In this document: in pieces, positions 2,805 through 9,141 of the stretch
How positions within the stretch are numbered: the stretch's first letter is position 1
How the letters are laid out: each line of letters starts with the position of its first letter
Source: an uncultured Gemmatimonadota bacterium
Lineage (GTDB): Bacteria; Gemmatimonadota; Gemmatimonadetes; Gemmatimonadales; Gemmatimonadaceae
Reading direction: 5' to 3'
Length of the DNA: 9,288 nucleotides
NCBI GenBank assembly: GCA_946480295.1
Contig: CAMLIT010000147.1
Span: 1-9,288 of the forward strand
The notes under the pieces: model-generated
Seen by the model: the letters and a program-made list of their open reading frames with translations, nothing else
Told to the model about the DNA's origin: nothing
Databases searched by the model: none
Translations under genes and position numbers: made by a program

Positions 2805-3365
2805 CTATAATGTAGTGGCAAGGCGCGCGACTCGATCTATAACCCCTTTTGCATCAAGTAGTTCCGTATCGACGACTGCATCCGCCGTCTCGTACGCCCT
2901 TCGCCGCTCCGCCAACAGCCGCCTCAACTCGCCGACTGGATCGGGACGCATGAGCAACGGCCGCGTCGCCCGGAACGCCCCCAAGCGCTTGAGTGCCGTC
3001 TCCGGGCGCACCTGAAGGTAGACCATTCGCGCCGGCGGCCGGATCAGCGCCACCACCTCGGGCTGCGTCACCCAGCCACCACCGGGCGAGAGCACCATGT
3101 TCCCGAACAGCCGCAGCTCCTCGGTGAGCGCCCGCTCGAGCTGGCGGAAGTAGCCCTCCCCCTTCTCGCCGAAGATCTGGCTGACGGACTGACCCTCGCG
3201 CCGCTCGATCTCGACGTCGATATCGAGGAACGTGCGCCCGAGCCGCTCGGCCACCGCCGCGCCGACGGTCGACTTTCCCACCCCGGGCAGGCCGACCAGG
3301 ATCAGGTGCGGCTTCCCCGGCTCAGCCGCTGATCCGCCCTTCGAGGTACGAAAGGTAGGACTCAT
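2805..3365 (-). CDS. aroK: Shikimate kinase
   Basis: Phosphorylates shikimate to shikimate 3-phosphate with ATP, the fifth step of the shikimate pathway, in the cytoplasm. 186 residues, close to the usual 170-190. The Walker A loop is GLPGVGKST (25-33). The shikimate-binding and metal region is FLDIDVEIE (Asp48, Asp50). FRQLE with Arg74 and the GGG loop (95-97) complete the substrate site. The lid contains Arg132 and Arg135 (FRATRPLL), and RRRAYE lies near the C-terminus. The ATG at 3365 is the only start codon before the Walker loop. It makes the gene overlap the end of aroC by 44 nt, with a weak AGG 7 nt upstream, which suggests coupled translation. The first ~18 residues (SPTFRTSKGGSAAEPGK) are a tail encoded within the overlap and are not conserved family sequence. 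aroB, often next to aroK, is not present here. Confidence 0.95.
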   Translation of the reverse strand: MSPTFRTSKGGSAAEPGKPHLILVGLPGVGKSTVGAAVAERLGRTFLDIDVEIERREGQSVSQIFGEKGEGYFRQLERALTEELRLFGNMVLSPGGGWVTQPEVVALIRPPARMVYLQVRPETALKRLGAFRATRPLLMRPDPVGELRRLLAERRRAYETADAVVDTELLDAKGVIDRVARLATTL

Positions 3366-4611
3366 AGTTTCGCCTGGTCTCGGCCAGCGAGTCGCCGCCG
3401 AACTTCTCGAGGAAGGCGTCGGCGAGCACGATCGCGATCATCCCCTCGGCGATCACGCCCATGGCCGGTACGGCGGTCACGTCGCTCCGTTCGGCGACCG
3501 CCGCGGCGGCCTGGCCGGTCTGGACGTCGATCGTGCCGAGCGGGCGCATGAGGGTGCTGATCGGCTTCATGGCGACGCGCACCACGAGCGGCTCGCCCGT
3601 CGTCATGCCGCCTTCCAGCCCGCCGGCCCGATTCGTCTTCCGGCGCACGTTGCCGGCGAGGATGCGGCCGGTCGCCATCTCGATCTCGTCGTGCACCTCG
3701 GCGCCGGTGACGCGCGCCGCCTGGAAGCCCATGCCGATCTCGACTCCCTTCACCGCGGGGATGGACATGATCGCCTGGCCGATGCGGCCGTCGAGCTTGC
3801 GGTCCCACGACACGTGCGAGCCGAGGCCAACCGGCAGCCCGTCGCAGACGACCTCGCAGATCCCGCCGAGGGTGTTCCCCTCGCGCTTGATGATGTCGAT
3901 GCGCTCGATCATCCGTCGCTCGGCATCGGGATCGAGCGTCCGCAAGGGCGATGCGTCCGAGGCGGCGTTGATGTCCTCGGGCATCTGCTCCGGGCGCAGG
4001 GCGTCGATCCCGCCGAGGTGCACGAGGTGGCTGCCGATGCGGACGCCGAACTCGTCGAGCAGGCGGCGGCAGACCGCGGAGGCGGCGACGCGCGCCGTGG
4101 TCTCGCGCGCCGAGGCGCGCTCGAGGATGTCGCGCGCGTCGTCGCGATCGTACTTGAGGATGCCCGTGAGGTCGGCGTGGCCGGGGCGCGGGCGGGTGAC
4201 GCTGCGCTTGCGCAGCGAGGGTCGAGGGTCGACGGTCGAGGGTCGAGACGGTGTCCCCGGCGCAGCGACGGCTCCCTCGACCAGGGGTGCATCTCGACCC
4301 TCTACACTCGACCCTCGCCCCTCGCCCTCCAGGGGCGCCGCGCTCATGATCTCCTGCCAGTTCTTCCAGTCGCGGTTGGCGATGAGCATGGCGATCGGGG
4401 AGCCGAGGGTCTCCCCGGCGCGCACGCCGGAGAGGAACTCCACGGTGTCCTTCTCGATCTGCATGCGCCGTCCGCGGCCGTAGCCCTGCTGGCGGCGCGC
4501 GAGCTGGGTGTTCACGTCCTCGGCCAGGAGCGGCAGCCCCGCCGGCATCCCTTCGACGATGCTGACGAGCGCCTGGCCGTGCGATTCTCCTGCGGTGGTG
4601 AAGCGGATCAT
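3322..4611 (-). CDS. aroC: Chorismate synthase with a repeat-encoded internal insertion
   Basis: Converts 5-enolpyruvylshikimate 3-phosphate to chorismate by trans-1,4 elimination of phosphate, using reduced FMN. It is the last step of the shikimate pathway. Signature motifs are visible: TAGESHG (6-12), RRQQGYGRGRRM (39-50), RPRPGHAD with His145 (140-147), SARET (167-171), SIPAVKGVEIG (283-293) and the C-terminal VPAMGVIAEG block (381-390). The length is 429, against about 360-400 in the family. The excess is residues ~95-134, a Pro/Arg/Ser/Gly/Val-rich stretch encoded by a heptamer-repeat hairpin between IMSAAPL and KRSVTRPRPG. The M. tuberculosis enzyme has a much shorter loop at this point. 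The frame stays open through the insertion and all core motifs are intact, so the enzyme is probably active with an enlarged surface loop. The start MIRFTTAGESHG matches the conserved N-terminus. The ATG lies 8 nt past a terminator T-tract, and no clear ribosome binding site is seen. Confidence 0.95.
   Translation of the reverse strand: MIRFTTAGESHGQALVSIVEGMPAGLPLLAEDVNTQLARRQQGYGRGRRMQIEKDTVEFLSGVRAGETLGSPIAMLIANRDWKNWQEIMSAAPLEGEGRGSSVEGRDAPLVEGAVAAPGTPSRPSTVDPRPSLRKRSVTRPRPGHADLTGILKYDRDDARDILERASARETTARVAASAVCRRLLDEFGVRIGSHLVHLGGIDALRPEQMPEDINAASDASPLRTLDPDAERRMIERIDIIKREGNTLGGICEVVCDGLPVGLGSHVSWDRKLDGRIGQAIMSIPAVKGVEIGMGFQAARVTGAEVHDEIEMATGRILAGNVRRKTNRAGGLEGGMTTGEPLVVRVAMKPISTLMRPLGTIDVQTGQAAAAVAERSDVTAVPAMGVIAEGMIAIVLADAFLEKFGGDSLAETRRNYESYLSYLEGRISG
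4211..4338. repeat. Heptanucleotide-repeat hairpin inserted in aroC
   Basis: The left arm (4217-4248) is four near-perfect copies of GAGGGTC (the third is GACGGTC) plus GAGA. The right arm (4292-4323) is its imperfect reverse complement. Pairing is 11 bp (4238-4248 with 4292-4302), a 5x5 mismatch, 10 bp (4223-4232 with 4308-4317), one mismatch, then 5 bp (4217-4221 with 4319-4323). The spacer is 43 nt. Each arm also sits between short direct repeats: GCGCAGCGA at 4210-4218 and 4260-4268, and CCAGGGGYGC at 4281-4290 and 4329-4338. The whole region is translated as part of aroC. Heptamer repeats of this kind recall the short tandem repeats of cyanobacteria. No transposase is nearby. Whether it is a dispersed family cannot be told from one copy. 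Confidence 0.85.
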
Positions 4612-4687: not shown

Positions 4688-7264
4688 CTAGTGGCCCGCC
4701 AGGATGTCGTTGGCGGTCAGGTCGATGACGACGAGGCCGTTCGACGAGAGGCCGTACAGCTTGTAGATCACGTCCGGCGGATCGCCGGGCATCGGACCGG
4801 AGACGCGCAGCGGCCCGTAGAGATTGCCCTTGGTGGTGAAGGTGCCGCGGTTGTTGAAGTAGGCCACGTCGATCGCCTGGATGACCCCACTCTTGGTGGC
4901 GGCGAACGCGAGCCGGTTGTTGTACGGCGGCGTGTACGGGACCGCGGGAGCCGGGCCCTTCGCGCCGGGCGCGAACGCGATGCCCGCGCCGTTGTCGAAC
5001 GAGTCGTACTCGCCCTCAAGACGCAGGGTGAAGGGGTCGTCGACGGCGGCGAAGTAGGACATCGAGCCGTGCGCCGCGACCTGCCGGCCGATCGAGTCGA
5101 CCGCGATGCCGAAGACGGTCTCCGAGGCGTTCTGCTGGAGGTCCGTGACCTGGATCGACGGGGTGAGGAACTCGGGCCCCTGATCGGCGCTGGAGGAGTC
5201 GTGCACCATGAAGACACGCGCCACGGCACGCGCGGAGAGGTTGCCCTCGCCGAACGCGATCCACTTCCGGTCCGTGCTCGCCGCCTCGTACGTCGTGTCG
5301 GTGAGCGCGAGATCCGAGAGGTCGAGGTTCGTCGCGGCCTCCACGTCGCTGCCCTGCGCCTGCAGGGCGGCGAACGCATTCTCCGGGACCGAGTCCGCCA
5401 CCTGGATGTTGCCGGTGGTCTGGCCGTACGGGTGATCCCAGAGGACGAGGATGTCCGACCGGCCGCTGTTGGGGGGCGCGGAGAGGATCGCCGCGGAGTC
5501 GACGTTGAACACCGCGTACGTCAGCGAGGACTGGCTGGCGAGCGTCTTGGCGTACTGCCAGACCTGGCGCGAGTCGGGTGACGGCAGCTTCGGGTCCATC
5601 CACCGCACCGTCCCCTCCGGCGCGAACGACGTCGGCCGGGTGGAGAAGTAGATGCGGCCGCCGTTGGATTCGGCCACGTACTCCGGACGGTCGGAGAAGC
5701 CGTAGACCTTCCCCGGCACGAGCCGGACCTGCTGGGTGTTCTGGTCCCGCGTGTACGTGAAGGTGAAGATGTAGCTGTTGCGCGTGCGGATGCGGCTGGC
5801 GAGCGCCTCGGTCGCCGGGGGCGCCGTGCCCGGAGCGCCGAGCAGCACGCGGCTGATGGTCGTCGCGCCGGAGTTGGCGACGAGCAGCGTGTCGTTGGCC
5901 AGGAACAGGCCCCAGGGCTGCGAGCCGACGGCGATGCCGTTCGGGACGAAGGACAGTGCCGGCCCCGCCGTGGTGGCGTCGTGCTGCCACACCTCGACGA
6001 GGTTGTAGTCGAGATTCGAGAGGAAGACATCGCCGCGGGTCGCGTCGACGGCCAGGTCGGCGATCACGCCGGGGCGCGGCAGCCGGTACGTGCGGCCGTA
6101 GACGATGAGCGACGAATCCACGTGCGCCTGCGACTCGACGGCGACGGCCTGGGTTGCCGTGGCGGGCACCGAGTAGCCGATGCGGCCGACCTCGTCGTAG
6201 GCGAAGGAGACGAAGCGGAGCTCCCGGCCCTGCTGCGTCTGCGGCAGCGTGACGGGGACGGAGACCGTACGCGGCGTGGAGTACGGCGCCGGCGAGAGGT
6301 CGATGCTGTCGCGCTTGATGAGCGTGCCGACGCTGTCGCGGACGACGTAGCCGACGAAGCGGATGCCGGCGTCGCCCTTGGCGGTGACGGTGATCGCGTC
6401 GCTGGTCTCCATCTTGGGCGGCACCGTCTGGTACACGCGCGGCGGCGAGGCGGTCTGGCCCTTGATCATGACGGTGACGGGCGCGGACTGGCCGGGATTG
6501 CGGTTCACGTCGATCGCCGAGGCGACGATCGTGAACGTGCCGTTGATCGGCGCGTCCTTCCGGATCAGCCACGTCGTGGTGAACCACGAGGTGTCCGGCT
6601 TCGGGCTGGTGAAGTTCGTCGTGATCGTGGTGTCGACCGGCGTCGGCCAGCTCCCGTTGTTCCGGATGTGGAAGCTCATGCTGGCGACGCCGTCCTTCTG
6701 CGCCGCGTACGCGGACAGCGACAGCAGGATGCCGGCGCTCTCCTGGTCGCCCGCCGGCGGGTCGATGATGCCGACGTGCGGACCGGTGACCATGAAGACG
6801 CGCACGCTGTCCTGGGCGACGTTGCCGGCGGAGTCGGTGGCGTACGCGCGCACGATCAGGCTGTCGACGGTGGTGTCGACGGGCTGCACCGGCTGGAGAT
6901 AGCGCCGGAGCGTGGTGTCCTTCGTGGCGCCGTCGAGCGGGACGTCGACGGCCGAGTAGCGCGCGGTCTGCTTGTACGTGCCGAGGTCGACGCTGCCGCT
7001 GACCTTGTAGCCGACGATCGTCACGTCCTTCAGGCCGAGCGAGCCGCCCGTCGCGTGCACGTGCACGTAGAGCGAATCGCCGACGTTGACGAGCGATCCG
7101 ACGCTCGGCGTGTCGATCGTGATGTGGAGGCCGGTGTTCGCGCCCGTGGTGCCGCCCTTGTTGCCCGAGCGGCTACCGGCGGCGGTGGGGACACCCGCAT
7201 CGCAGCTGACCACCACCGCGATGCCGGCGCCAAAGAGGGCAAAACGTGCAAGGAGTGATCGCAT
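4688..7264 (-). CDS. Lipoprotein with Ig-like repeats and a beta-propeller-like region, function unknown
   Basis: 858 residues, not recognised as a named family. Signal peptide: MRSLLARF, hydrophobic core LFGAGIAVVV, lipobox VVSC with the lipidated Cys21, and Asp at +2. A Gly/Ser/Thr linker follows. Three Ig-like repeats of ~100 residues are suggested at about 46-160, 163-267 and 276-375. Each begins with a 'PPxxG/PxxxxS' type strand and ends in a ...VRAYATDSAGNVAQDSV-like strand (compare IVASAIDVNRNPG and RFVSFAYDEVGRIG). Residues ~390-855 look like a beta-propeller: IADLAVDATRGDVFLSNL, IAVGSQPWGLFLANDTLLVAN, FGIAVDSIGRQVAAHG and LYGLSSNGLVVIDL resemble NHL/YVTN-type blades. The gene follows pilQ by 29 nt and ends before a terminator, so it belongs to the pil operon. 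The start 7264 is chosen for its GGAG site 7 nt upstream and the proper signal peptide. TTG 7297 and ATG 7294 would give an overlong N-terminus. It could be a pilus accessory or an unrelated surface protein. Confidence 0.85.
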   Translation of the reverse strand: MRSLLARFALFGAGIAVVVSCDAGVPTAAGSRSGNKGGTTGANTGLHITIDTPSVGSLVNVGDSLYVHVHATGGSLGLKDVTIVGYKVSGSVDLGTYKQTARYSAVDVPLDGATKDTTLRRYLQPVQPVDTTVDSLIVRAYATDSAGNVAQDSVRVFMVTGPHVGIIDPPAGDQESAGILLSLSAYAAQKDGVASMSFHIRNNGSWPTPVDTTITTNFTSPKPDTSWFTTTWLIRKDAPINGTFTIVASAIDVNRNPGQSAPVTVMIKGQTASPPRVYQTVPPKMETSDAITVTAKGDAGIRFVGYVVRDSVGTLIKRDSIDLSPAPYSTPRTVSVPVTLPQTQQGRELRFVSFAYDEVGRIGYSVPATATQAVAVESQAHVDSSLIVYGRTYRLPRPGVIADLAVDATRGDVFLSNLDYNLVEVWQHDATTAGPALSFVPNGIAVGSQPWGLFLANDTLLVANSGATTISRVLLGAPGTAPPATEALASRIRTRNSYIFTFTYTRDQNTQQVRLVPGKVYGFSDRPEYVAESNGGRIYFSTRPTSFAPEGTVRWMDPKLPSPDSRQVWQYAKTLASQSSLTYAVFNVDSAAILSAPPNSGRSDILVLWDHPYGQTTGNIQVADSVPENAFAALQAQGSDVEAATNLDLSDLALTDTTYEAASTDRKWIAFGEGNLSARAVARVFMVHDSSSADQGPEFLTPSIQVTDLQQNASETVFGIAVDSIGRQVAAHGSMSYFAAVDDPFTLRLEGEYDSFDNGAGIAFAPGAKGPAPAVPYTPPYNNRLAFAATKSGVIQAIDVAYFNNRGTFTTKGNLYGPLRVSGPMPGDPPDVIYKLYGLSSNGLVVIDLTANDILAGH

Positions 7265-7271
7265 GTGCTTG

Positions 7272-7276
7272 CTCCA
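7272..7276 (-). promoter_or_regulatory. Ribosome binding site of the lipoprotein gene
   Basis: The minus strand reads TGGAG, ending 7 nt before the ATG at 7264. It decides the start in favour of 7264, which places the signal peptide directly at the N-terminus. Confidence 0.7.
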
Positions 7277-7293
7277 CGTCAGGGCCGACTGCA

Positions 7294-9141
7294 TCAACGG
7301 CTCGGCGGGGGTTGCTCACCCTCGTCCACGATGTGCGGCGTGAGGAGGATGAGCAGATCGCGCTTCGCCTCTTCGCGGTTCGTCATGCCGAAGAGGTGTC
7401 CGATGATCGGCAGGTCGACGAGGATCGGGATGCCGGTCTTCGTGTAGCGCACGGTCGTCTGGGTGAGGCCACCCATGACCGCGGTCTCGCCATCGCCGAC
7501 GAGGACCTCGTTGTCCACCTTCTGGGTCGGGAACACCGCGCCGACGTCGCTCGACTGGAACTGCACGTCGGAGTTCTCCACGTGGACGCGCATCTGGATC
7601 TGCCGGTTGGCGGTGATCTGCGGGGTCACCTGGAGGATCACACCGACCTCGCGGAACGTCACATTCGCGCGGGGGAAGGCGCTCCCGCCGCCGGCGGAGC
7701 TGGCGGCGTCGATGACGCGGATCGGGACCGTGGTACCGGCGGTGAGGTTCGCCGTACGGTTGTTGAGCACCGTGGCGCTGGGCTCGGCCTGGATGTCGAG
7801 GAGCGACAGGTTCTGGAGCGCCTCGAGGAAGGTCGAGAGGGTGTAGCCACCCATCGCCGTGGAGTAGACGAGCTGCAGCGCCGCGCCGGGCACGCGCTCG
7901 GTGGCGTTGGCGATCGCGGCGAGCGCGTTGCCGCCGAGACTGAAGAGCCCCTCGCCGGTGACGAGCGGCGTACCGGTGGAGTCGACGCGCGGCAGGACGC
8001 CGTTGAAGAAGTTCGTGGCGGTGCCGATGTCGTACCGCAGGCCGAGCGCCTCGAGGTTCGTGCGATCGACGAGGATGATCTTGGCCTTGATGTTGACCTG
8101 CGGCTGGCGCAGGTCGAGCGACTTCGCGTACTCCTCGAGCTGCTCGAGGTTCGAGGGCACGTCGGTGATGCTGATGCTGTTCGTCAGCGTGTCCGGCGTG
8201 ACCGTGCCGCGGATCATGCAGCCCGGCGCGAGGTTGAGCGCGCCCGCCTGCGCGAGCTGGTTGGCGGACTGCGGGGTGTTGATCGTGGACGACGGCGCGG
8301 CGTGGCACTCACGGCTGAGGCGCTGCGCGATCATCGGCGCGACCTGGTCGGCGCGCGTGTAGTTCAGGCGGATCGTGCGCGTGGCGAGCGGCTCGGCCGC
8401 CTGGCGCGCGGCGATCTGCTGGAAGGTGTCGACGATGATGATGCCGCTGTTCGGATCCTCGGTCGCGTCGAAGCCGTTCGCGTTGAGGATCGCGCGCAGG
8501 GCGACGTCCCAGGGCTGGTTCGTGATCTCGGCGGTGATCTTCCCCGTCACGTCCTTCGACGGGATGATCGTGCGGCCGGAGAAGGCGGCGAAGGCGGCGA
8601 GGACGTCGCGGATGTCGGCGTCCTGATAGGTGACGGTGATGCGCGGCTGCGAGGCCGCCGGCGCCGCGGGGGCGGGGCGGAAGGAGCGCTGGGCGACGGC
8701 GGACGTGGCGGCCGTGACGTCGTCGGCGTGCCAGGCGGCGCAGCGCGCGTTGCCGCTCTGCACGGCGACGCGCAGGTCGTGGTCGCCGCGCACGATGTCG
8801 TACGGGTGCGCGCCATCGAGCTCGATGACGACGCGAACGACGTCGCGGCGGTACTGCGCGTAGCGGACGTTGGTGATGCCGCCGCGCGCGACGCGGTCAT
8901 AGAGCCGCGGGGCGACGCCGAGGGTGGCGCCGTTGACGTCGAGCACGATGCGGTCCGGCGACGTGAGGGGGAAGTCCTCGACGTTCACGGACCCGTCGAC
9001 GGCGATCACGACCTCCGCCTTGCCGGCCGTCGGCACGATGCTCACTCCGGTCACCGTGCCGCCACCGGGAGCCGCCGCGGCGCGCCGGGCGGGAGCCAGG
9101 GCGGCGATGGCCAGGGTGACGAGCGTCAAGACTCGCCTCAT
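7294..9141 (-). CDS. pilQ: Type IV pilus secretin PilQ
   Basis: Outer-membrane secretin pore through which the type IV pilus is extruded. 615 residues. Signal peptide 1-23 (MRRVLTLVTLAIAALAP...AAAA). AMIN-type peptidoglycan-binding domain at ~30-127 (VTGVSIVPTAGKAEVVIAVDG...DRIVLDV...VVRVVIELDG). Ala/Pro linker at ~140-166. STN domain at ~172-225 (ADIRDVLAAFAAFSGRTIIP...VTGKITAEI...WDVALRAIL). An N1-type secretin domain at ~254-345 is interrupted by an insertion holding Cys279 and Cys308. The secretin core at ~350-605 ends with VGVILQVTPQI, GGLTQTTVRYTKTGIPILVDLPIIGHLF and RDLLILLTPHIV. The ATG overlaps the upstream PilP-like stop (ATGA), with GAGG 5 nt upstream. This is the standard pilP-pilQ arrangement. 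AMIN plus STN plus secretin order separates PilQ from type II (GspD) secretins. It is shorter than many PilQ proteins because it has one AMIN domain. Confidence 0.93.
   Translation of the reverse strand: MRRVLTLVTLAIAALAPARRAAAAPGGGTVTGVSIVPTAGKAEVVIAVDGSVNVEDFPLTSPDRIVLDVNGATLGVAPRLYDRVARGGITNVRYAQYRRDVVRVVIELDGAHPYDIVRGDHDLRVAVQSGNARCAAWHADDVTAATSAVAQRSFRPAPAAPAASQPRITVTYQDADIRDVLAAFAAFSGRTIIPSKDVTGKITAEITNQPWDVALRAILNANGFDATEDPNSGIIIVDTFQQIAARQAAEPLATRTIRLNYTRADQVAPMIAQRLSRECHAAPSSTINTPQSANQLAQAGALNLAPGCMIRGTVTPDTLTNSISITDVPSNLEQLEEYAKSLDLRQPQVNIKAKIILVDRTNLEALGLRYDIGTATNFFNGVLPRVDSTGTPLVTGEGLFSLGGNALAAIANATERVPGAALQLVYSTAMGGYTLSTFLEALQNLSLLDIQAEPSATVLNNRTANLTAGTTVPIRVIDAASSAGGGSAFPRANVTFREVGVILQVTPQITANRQIQMRVHVENSDVQFQSSDVGAVFPTQKVDNEVLVGDGETAVMGGLTQTTVRYTKTGIPILVDLPIIGHLFGMTNREEAKRDLLILLTPHIVDEGEQPPPSR

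Follow-up and report, generated by a model that had tools for sequence, protein, structure and literature searches.

Heptameric G-rich tandem repeats are a class already known from Xanthomonas and Nostoc. As described in the available portion of Rehm et al. (2015; PMC4692102), these repeats have the units GGGAATC and GGGGA(C/T)T and are 89% and 93% intergenic (11% and 7% intragenic); convergently oriented pairs of sites number 70 and 75. The arrays lie nearer to the 5' neighbouring ORF whatever its orientation, and a three-tetrad quadruplex was proposed for them. Dispersed repeats of other kinds include the TAACTGA repeats of marine Beggiatoaceae, with one fixed unit, one inverted case and 10 sets inside ORFs (PMC4679880, available in part), and the RPEs of Rickettsia, families of about 150 bp with a conserved peptide, nearly half of whose 44 copies lie in ORFs (work of Ogata et al. 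2000 and 2002 as summarised in the review PMC10969869, available in part).

The feature described here lies within the aroC gene of a Gemmatimonadota bacterium. It shares with the Xanthomonas and Nostoc repeats the 7-nt tandem unit and the G-rich strand, and a dispersed, mostly intergenic distribution, seen here in the relatives. In contrast to the unit GGGANTN given in the available text on Xanthomonas and Nostoc, the unit is GAGGGTC (GGGTCGA) in the window and GGAGAGT, GGGCGTG or others in the relatives; the units vary among genomes of one family, with several found within one genome, and in-frame use at matching protein linkers is recurrent. The available part of PMC4692102 and the literature searched, outside which most subscription journals lie, contained no link between Gemmatimonadota and heptameric repeats, and no report was found there of unit variation among relatives, of the loss of the quadruplex rule or of recurrent in-frame linker use.

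Among the other systems, the Beggiatoaceae repeats, as far as the available text describes them, are likewise dispersed 7-nt direct repeats, mostly intergenic, whereas the units here differ among genomes. The RPEs, in the accessible part of the review, are similar in that a palindromic repeat stands in frame in a metabolic gene and is absent from a relative (here P0002), but the period of 7 is the sole constant here, while unit, spacer and peptide vary. REP elements are matched in being dispersed, largely intergenic palindromes; unlike in the REP/RAYT system, there is no fixed sequence. Overall, the feature fits the convergent heptameric repeats better than a Rickettsia-type palindrome.

A paired heptamer hairpin in aroC

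The window, i.e. the whole stretch of 9,288 nt that was analysed, carries topA, aroC, a shikimate kinase gene and a pilQ-like gene on its minus strand (Table 1). If their starts are correctly predicted, the ORFs of aroC and of shikimate kinase share 44 nt of the minus strand (3322-3365). Upstream of aroC, an 869-aa ORF (4688-7297, minus strand) has no NCBIfam match at E 0.001.

Table 1. Positions of the aroC hairpin and of the surrounding features in the window.
Feature	Positions	Strand	Basis
aroC, chorismate synthase, 429 aa	3322..4611	-	ORF; NCBIfam PRK05382 (431.5 bits), TIGR00033; Pfam PF01264 (393 bits, residues 2-401)
Shikimate kinase gene, after aroC (context only)	2805..3365	-	best NCBIfam matches are to shikimate kinase, below curated cut-offs
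AroC variable loop, residues 86-139, 54 aa, NRDWKNW to RPRPGHAD	4195..4356	-	loop comparison
G-rich heptamer arm (GAGGGTC type)	4215..4248	+	inverted-repeat search, TRF
Spacer between arms, 43 nt	4249..4291		not conserved relative to P0001
C-rich heptamer arm	4292..4325	+	reverse complement of the 4215..4248 arm (30/34)

The hairpin in aroC is confirmed. An earlier note on this DNA had described inverted arms of GAGGGTC type, 32 nt long with 26 possible pairs, around a spacer of 43 nt; the arms and the spacer length stand, and the dimensions of the arms are corrected to 34 nt each with 30 complementary positions (88%). Arrays of period 7 were detected by TRF at 4216-4247 (4.6 copies, 92% matches) and at 4307-4327 (3.0 copies). 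With at most three mismatches, GAGGGTCGAGGGTC matches the window 12 times versus 3.0 expected, a number reached by none of 200 shuffles, and seven of these matches overlap the two arms. The RNA of the aroC strand at 4205-4335 folds with -86 kcal/mol, whereas shuffled sequences average -60.5 and none of 200 does as well (z -6.5); for the DNA of the plus strand z is -4.1 and one of 200 shuffles is as good. As read from the sequence, GGG occurs three times in the plus arm, next to one CGG, short of the four GGG tracts of the quadruplex proposed for the Xanthomonas and Nostoc repeats.

The aroC reading frame stays open through both arms and the spacer, as the earlier note had claimed for a repeat in frame in a core metabolic gene. 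Calculated from the coordinates, the two arms with their spacer correspond approximately to residues 96-133, which fall inside the variable loop. In the AlphaFold model of the protein (mean pLDDT 86.4), residues 98-110, 112-116 and 120-130 have a pLDDT below 50; the model as a whole matches solved chorismate synthases, the best being 2qhf (TM 0.86 by query length). The product of the insert is predicted to be a disordered extension of a loop on an otherwise normal chorismate synthase.

The loop is also longer than usual, as had been noted: the 54 residues of the window compare with 21 in 63 of the 120 homologues listed among at least 7,999 scored. Loops of at least 38 residues occur in 22 of these 120, and the length ranges from 18 to 55 among the sequences compared. 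The protein P0001 has a loop of equal length and is 92% identical to the window AroC overall and 94% outside the loop; 23 of 27 residues are identical in the arms and one of 14 in the spacer. The close relative P0002 has a loop of 21 residues. A quick tree was built from 62 AroC sequences after removal of the loop. On it, P0002 groups with the window and P0001 (SH-aLRT 99), and L001, whose heptamer pair at the matching AroC site is a different one, groups with P0064 (21 residues; SH-aLRT 89, not starred). At least nine changes between long and short loops are needed on this tree, and since the starred branches force two of them, two or more origins of the long loop are likely, if not strictly proven.

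At the protein level, identity at lag 7 in the 22 long loops is 0.226 versus 0.08-0.12 at other lags. There are 131 lag-7 matches, whereas permutations average 62 and reach 93 at most; because the loops are related, this comparison is not a clean probability. Several long loops, e.g. that of L005, lack a recognisable heptamer. A further AroC match (L172, G015:C4:406954-407844) contains one internal TGA, possibly a frameshift, a pseudogene or an assembly error.

Heptamer families and their polarity in related genomes

Heptamer arrays, mostly between genes, are carried by four relatives: G001 (the genome of L001), G011, G003 and G025. The sequence GGAGAGTGGAGAGT occurs 66 times in G001 and its backward control is not found; in G011, the 14-mer search gave 65 matches, a dispersed family as in G001. 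Three consecutive units of GAGGGTC were found in five of 98 relatives, with 31 of the 38 matches in G011; of GGAGAGT in three of 98 (31 of 33 matches in G001); and of GGGCGTG in four of 98 (64 of 69 matches in G003). The backward-pattern controls are not empty (two matches for GAGGGTC, 12 in three genomes for GGAGAGT and one for GGGCGTG); such matches are heptamer arrays of another unit, which some of the genomes have themselves. The half megabase of G011 that was examined holds 18 different units.

In stretches mostly chosen around matches, 30 arrays of period 7 were found in G001 and 67 in G011, whereas each of the remaining periods between 5 and 12 has 0-7. Sequence of G011 that was not chosen for matches has 14 arrays of period 7, eight of the double period 14 and at most two of others. 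The excess of period 7 is absent from unselected blocks of G001 (one array in 229 kb) and from 51 Gemmatimonadota AroC loci (540 kb), which have four arrays of period 7 versus eight of period 12. Blocks of G003 and G025 that were partly chosen through matches have 10 arrays of period 7, one of them a C homopolymer, and nine, respectively. The abundance of arrays differs greatly between genomes. Arrays stand at several contig ends (G003:C1:7-90, G003:C16:49-83, G011:C8:27-47 and G011:C29:8-21); assemblies therefore probably break there, and array counts are too low.

Sites within genes are few. Our own codon-usage gene caller placed four of the 30 GGAGAGT sites of G001 in genes, and none of the 30 GAGGGTC sites of G011; the corresponding numbers of arrays are three of 10 in G003 and one of nine in G025. 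An ACGGTCC array, whose unit differs from the main one of G001, lies in that genome at 6854-6882, within the M56 match of a HEAT-repeat BlaR1/M56 peptidase (L203:6520-8922).

The pairs are convergent with the G-rich strand inwards, as in the available account of Xanthomonas and Nostoc: the G-rich arm comes first in all 37 paired elements of the four genomes. A search for partner arms paired 20 of the 30 arrays of G001 and 16 of the 67 of G011, and the reversed-flank controls found partners for three of 30 and four of 67, so a few of the 37 pairs may be due to chance. The position relative to genes is also similar to that described for Xanthomonas and Nostoc, with 64 of 80 scored intergenic arrays nearer to the gene that lies 5' of their G-rich strand; the remaining 16 break this rule. 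It is followed by 40 arrays versus 14 between tandem genes, by 16 versus one between convergent genes and by eight versus one between divergent genes. In G001 and G011, 39 of 71 scored arrays lie at the stop edge of a gene with the G-rich strand as sense. Eight of the 67 arrays of G011 (loci L207, L213, L214, L215, L218, L222, L225 and L241) begin 2 nt inside the predicted end of the neighbouring gene, i.e. within its stop codon.

Heptamer arrays in protein linkers

In G001, paired GGAGAGT arms stand in frame between the homocysteine and pterin domains of MetH (PF02574, residues 2-300; PF00809, residues 352-586) and between two aldehyde dehydrogenase (ALDH) domains, and a predicted solute-binding protein has an array close to its N-terminus. 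The ALDH-ALDH and MetH linkers were chosen for a wider survey via these inserts, and the proportions given below hold for these linkers rather than for linkers generally. Pairs were counted at a score of 11 or more, and expectations were derived from codon shuffles.

Nine arrays and 10 pairs were found in 20 ALDH-ALDH linkers from 25 loci, seven linkers having both, compared with 0.00 arrays and 0.20 pairs expected. The 23 MetH linkers from 30 loci have three arrays and three pairs (two with both; expected 0.05 and 0.60), and the 77 distinct AroC loops from 134 loci, the window included, have three arrays (window, L001 and L167) and two pairs (expected 0.00 and 0.25). Apart from period 7, no array with a period between 4 and 12 occurs in the ALDH, MetH and AroC linkers surveyed. 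The seven ALDH linkers with both array and pair have seven different units and different peptides. Among the 11 surveyed linkers that combine the two, 10 have the G-rich arm first, L363 being the C-first exception. With G001 left out, the identity in ALDH linkers is 0.459 at lag 7 and 0.411 at lag 14, whereas the remaining lags between 4 and 15 give 0.26-0.33; in MetH linkers it is 0.373 at lag 7, no higher than at lag 9, and the DNA of the AroC loops is without a lag-7 excess. The recurrence of in-frame arrays at matching protein linkers with different units is the new part of these observations.

Origin of the in-frame arrays

We consider it probable that the aroC feature is an in-frame member of the convergent heptameric tandem repeats, lodged in a tolerant loop. 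The element has a G-rich arm, a short unconserved spacer and a C-rich arm complementary to the first. Such arrays are mostly intergenic in the relatives examined, and their unit changes from genome to genome; within genes, they also occupy flexible loops and inter-domain linkers, which would accept any sequence, and the long loop may be neutral for the AroC enzyme. Against this reading stand the lack of a period-7 excess in the unselected blocks of G001 and in the AroC loci, the 16 intergenic arrays that break the positional rule, the C-first pair of L363 and the long AroC loops in which no heptamer can be recognised. Arrays in genes could persist because many heptamers are stop-free on either strand: since 7 equals 1 modulo 3, three units traverse all three frames, and a stop-free unit is open in any frame and gives a peptide repeat of seven residues. 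On both strands, 50.4% of random heptamers are stop-free, and so are the six in-gene units tested. The arrays may grow by replication slippage, an older suggestion for heptamers that is cited in the available part of Rehm et al. (PMC4692102), and the second arm may be made by copying or by selection of the hairpin. A quadruplex as common denominator is ruled out by the units: a three-tetrad structure is not common to all of them, because GGAGAGT, for instance, has no GGG.

A mobile palindrome like the RPEs of Rickettsia or the REP/RAYT elements, transposing as a unit and sometimes landing in frame, is an unlikely source. Inverted-repeat structures are dispersed in the genomes and stand in frame in metabolic genes, and RPEs behave so in Rickettsia according to the accessible part of the review (PMC10969869). 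However, one and the same site has different heptamers in different genomes, the arms agree between the window and P0001 far better than the spacer does, and the copies in G001 share little in spacers and flanks beyond residual heptamers: a conserved spacer or flank, as a sign of transposition, was sought by blastn among 18 array-masked sites, and only short matches were returned, identified by reading as residual heptamers. Y1_Tnp (RAYT) was found in one of six relatives (G022) and not in G001 or G011, these being MAGs whose completeness is not given. The view of the earlier note that a Rickettsia-like palindromic unit had moved into the gene is therefore not supported: spacers vary, the unit differs among genomes and RAYT was not found in G001 or G011.

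About as improbable is a selected RNA or DNA hairpin, i.e. a terminator, mRNA stabiliser or regulator, of which the aroC copy would be a regulatory hairpin within the message. The fold is very stable, and many intergenic arrays of G001 and G011 lie beside the end of a gene, their G-rich strand being the sense strand; against this, the polarity is kept between divergent genes, where a terminator is unneeded, and copies occur inside genes. TTTT lies within 15 nt of one of the 37 pairs only, and the intrinsic terminator was rejected on this count.

Slippage does not account for the G-first polarity. We speculate, as a long shot, that an active process adds G-rich 7-nt units to 3' ends, e.g. to both ends of a chromosome break before joining. 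Such a process would explain the fixed period, the change of unit, the G-first pairs in any gene orientation, the unconserved spacers and the single arms; if true, the linkers would be scars of break healing, much as telomere repeats heal breaks. RVT_1 was found in one of six relatives, which was neither G001 nor G011, and this gives no support to a classical reverse transcriptase. Ordinary variation in loop length with repeats arising by chance, which would fit the spread of AroC loop lengths in the family, partly without heptamers, is hardly credible given the single period, the different units, the paired arms, the 0.00-0.05 arrays expected by shuffling per linker set and, with the caveat of relatedness, the permutation maximum.

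If the aroC hairpin is a convergent heptameric repeat in a tolerant loop, a little-studied class of bacterial repeats is linked to protein evolution. Flexible linkers of essential enzymes would have been filled repeatedly by hairpins whose seven-letter word changes with the genome, so that linker sequence here would be partly written by a repeat process and not by residue-by-residue selection. Xanthomonas and Nostoc have the strict period of 7 and the one-way polarity as well, which points to a common generating mechanism that is now testable across many units and sites.
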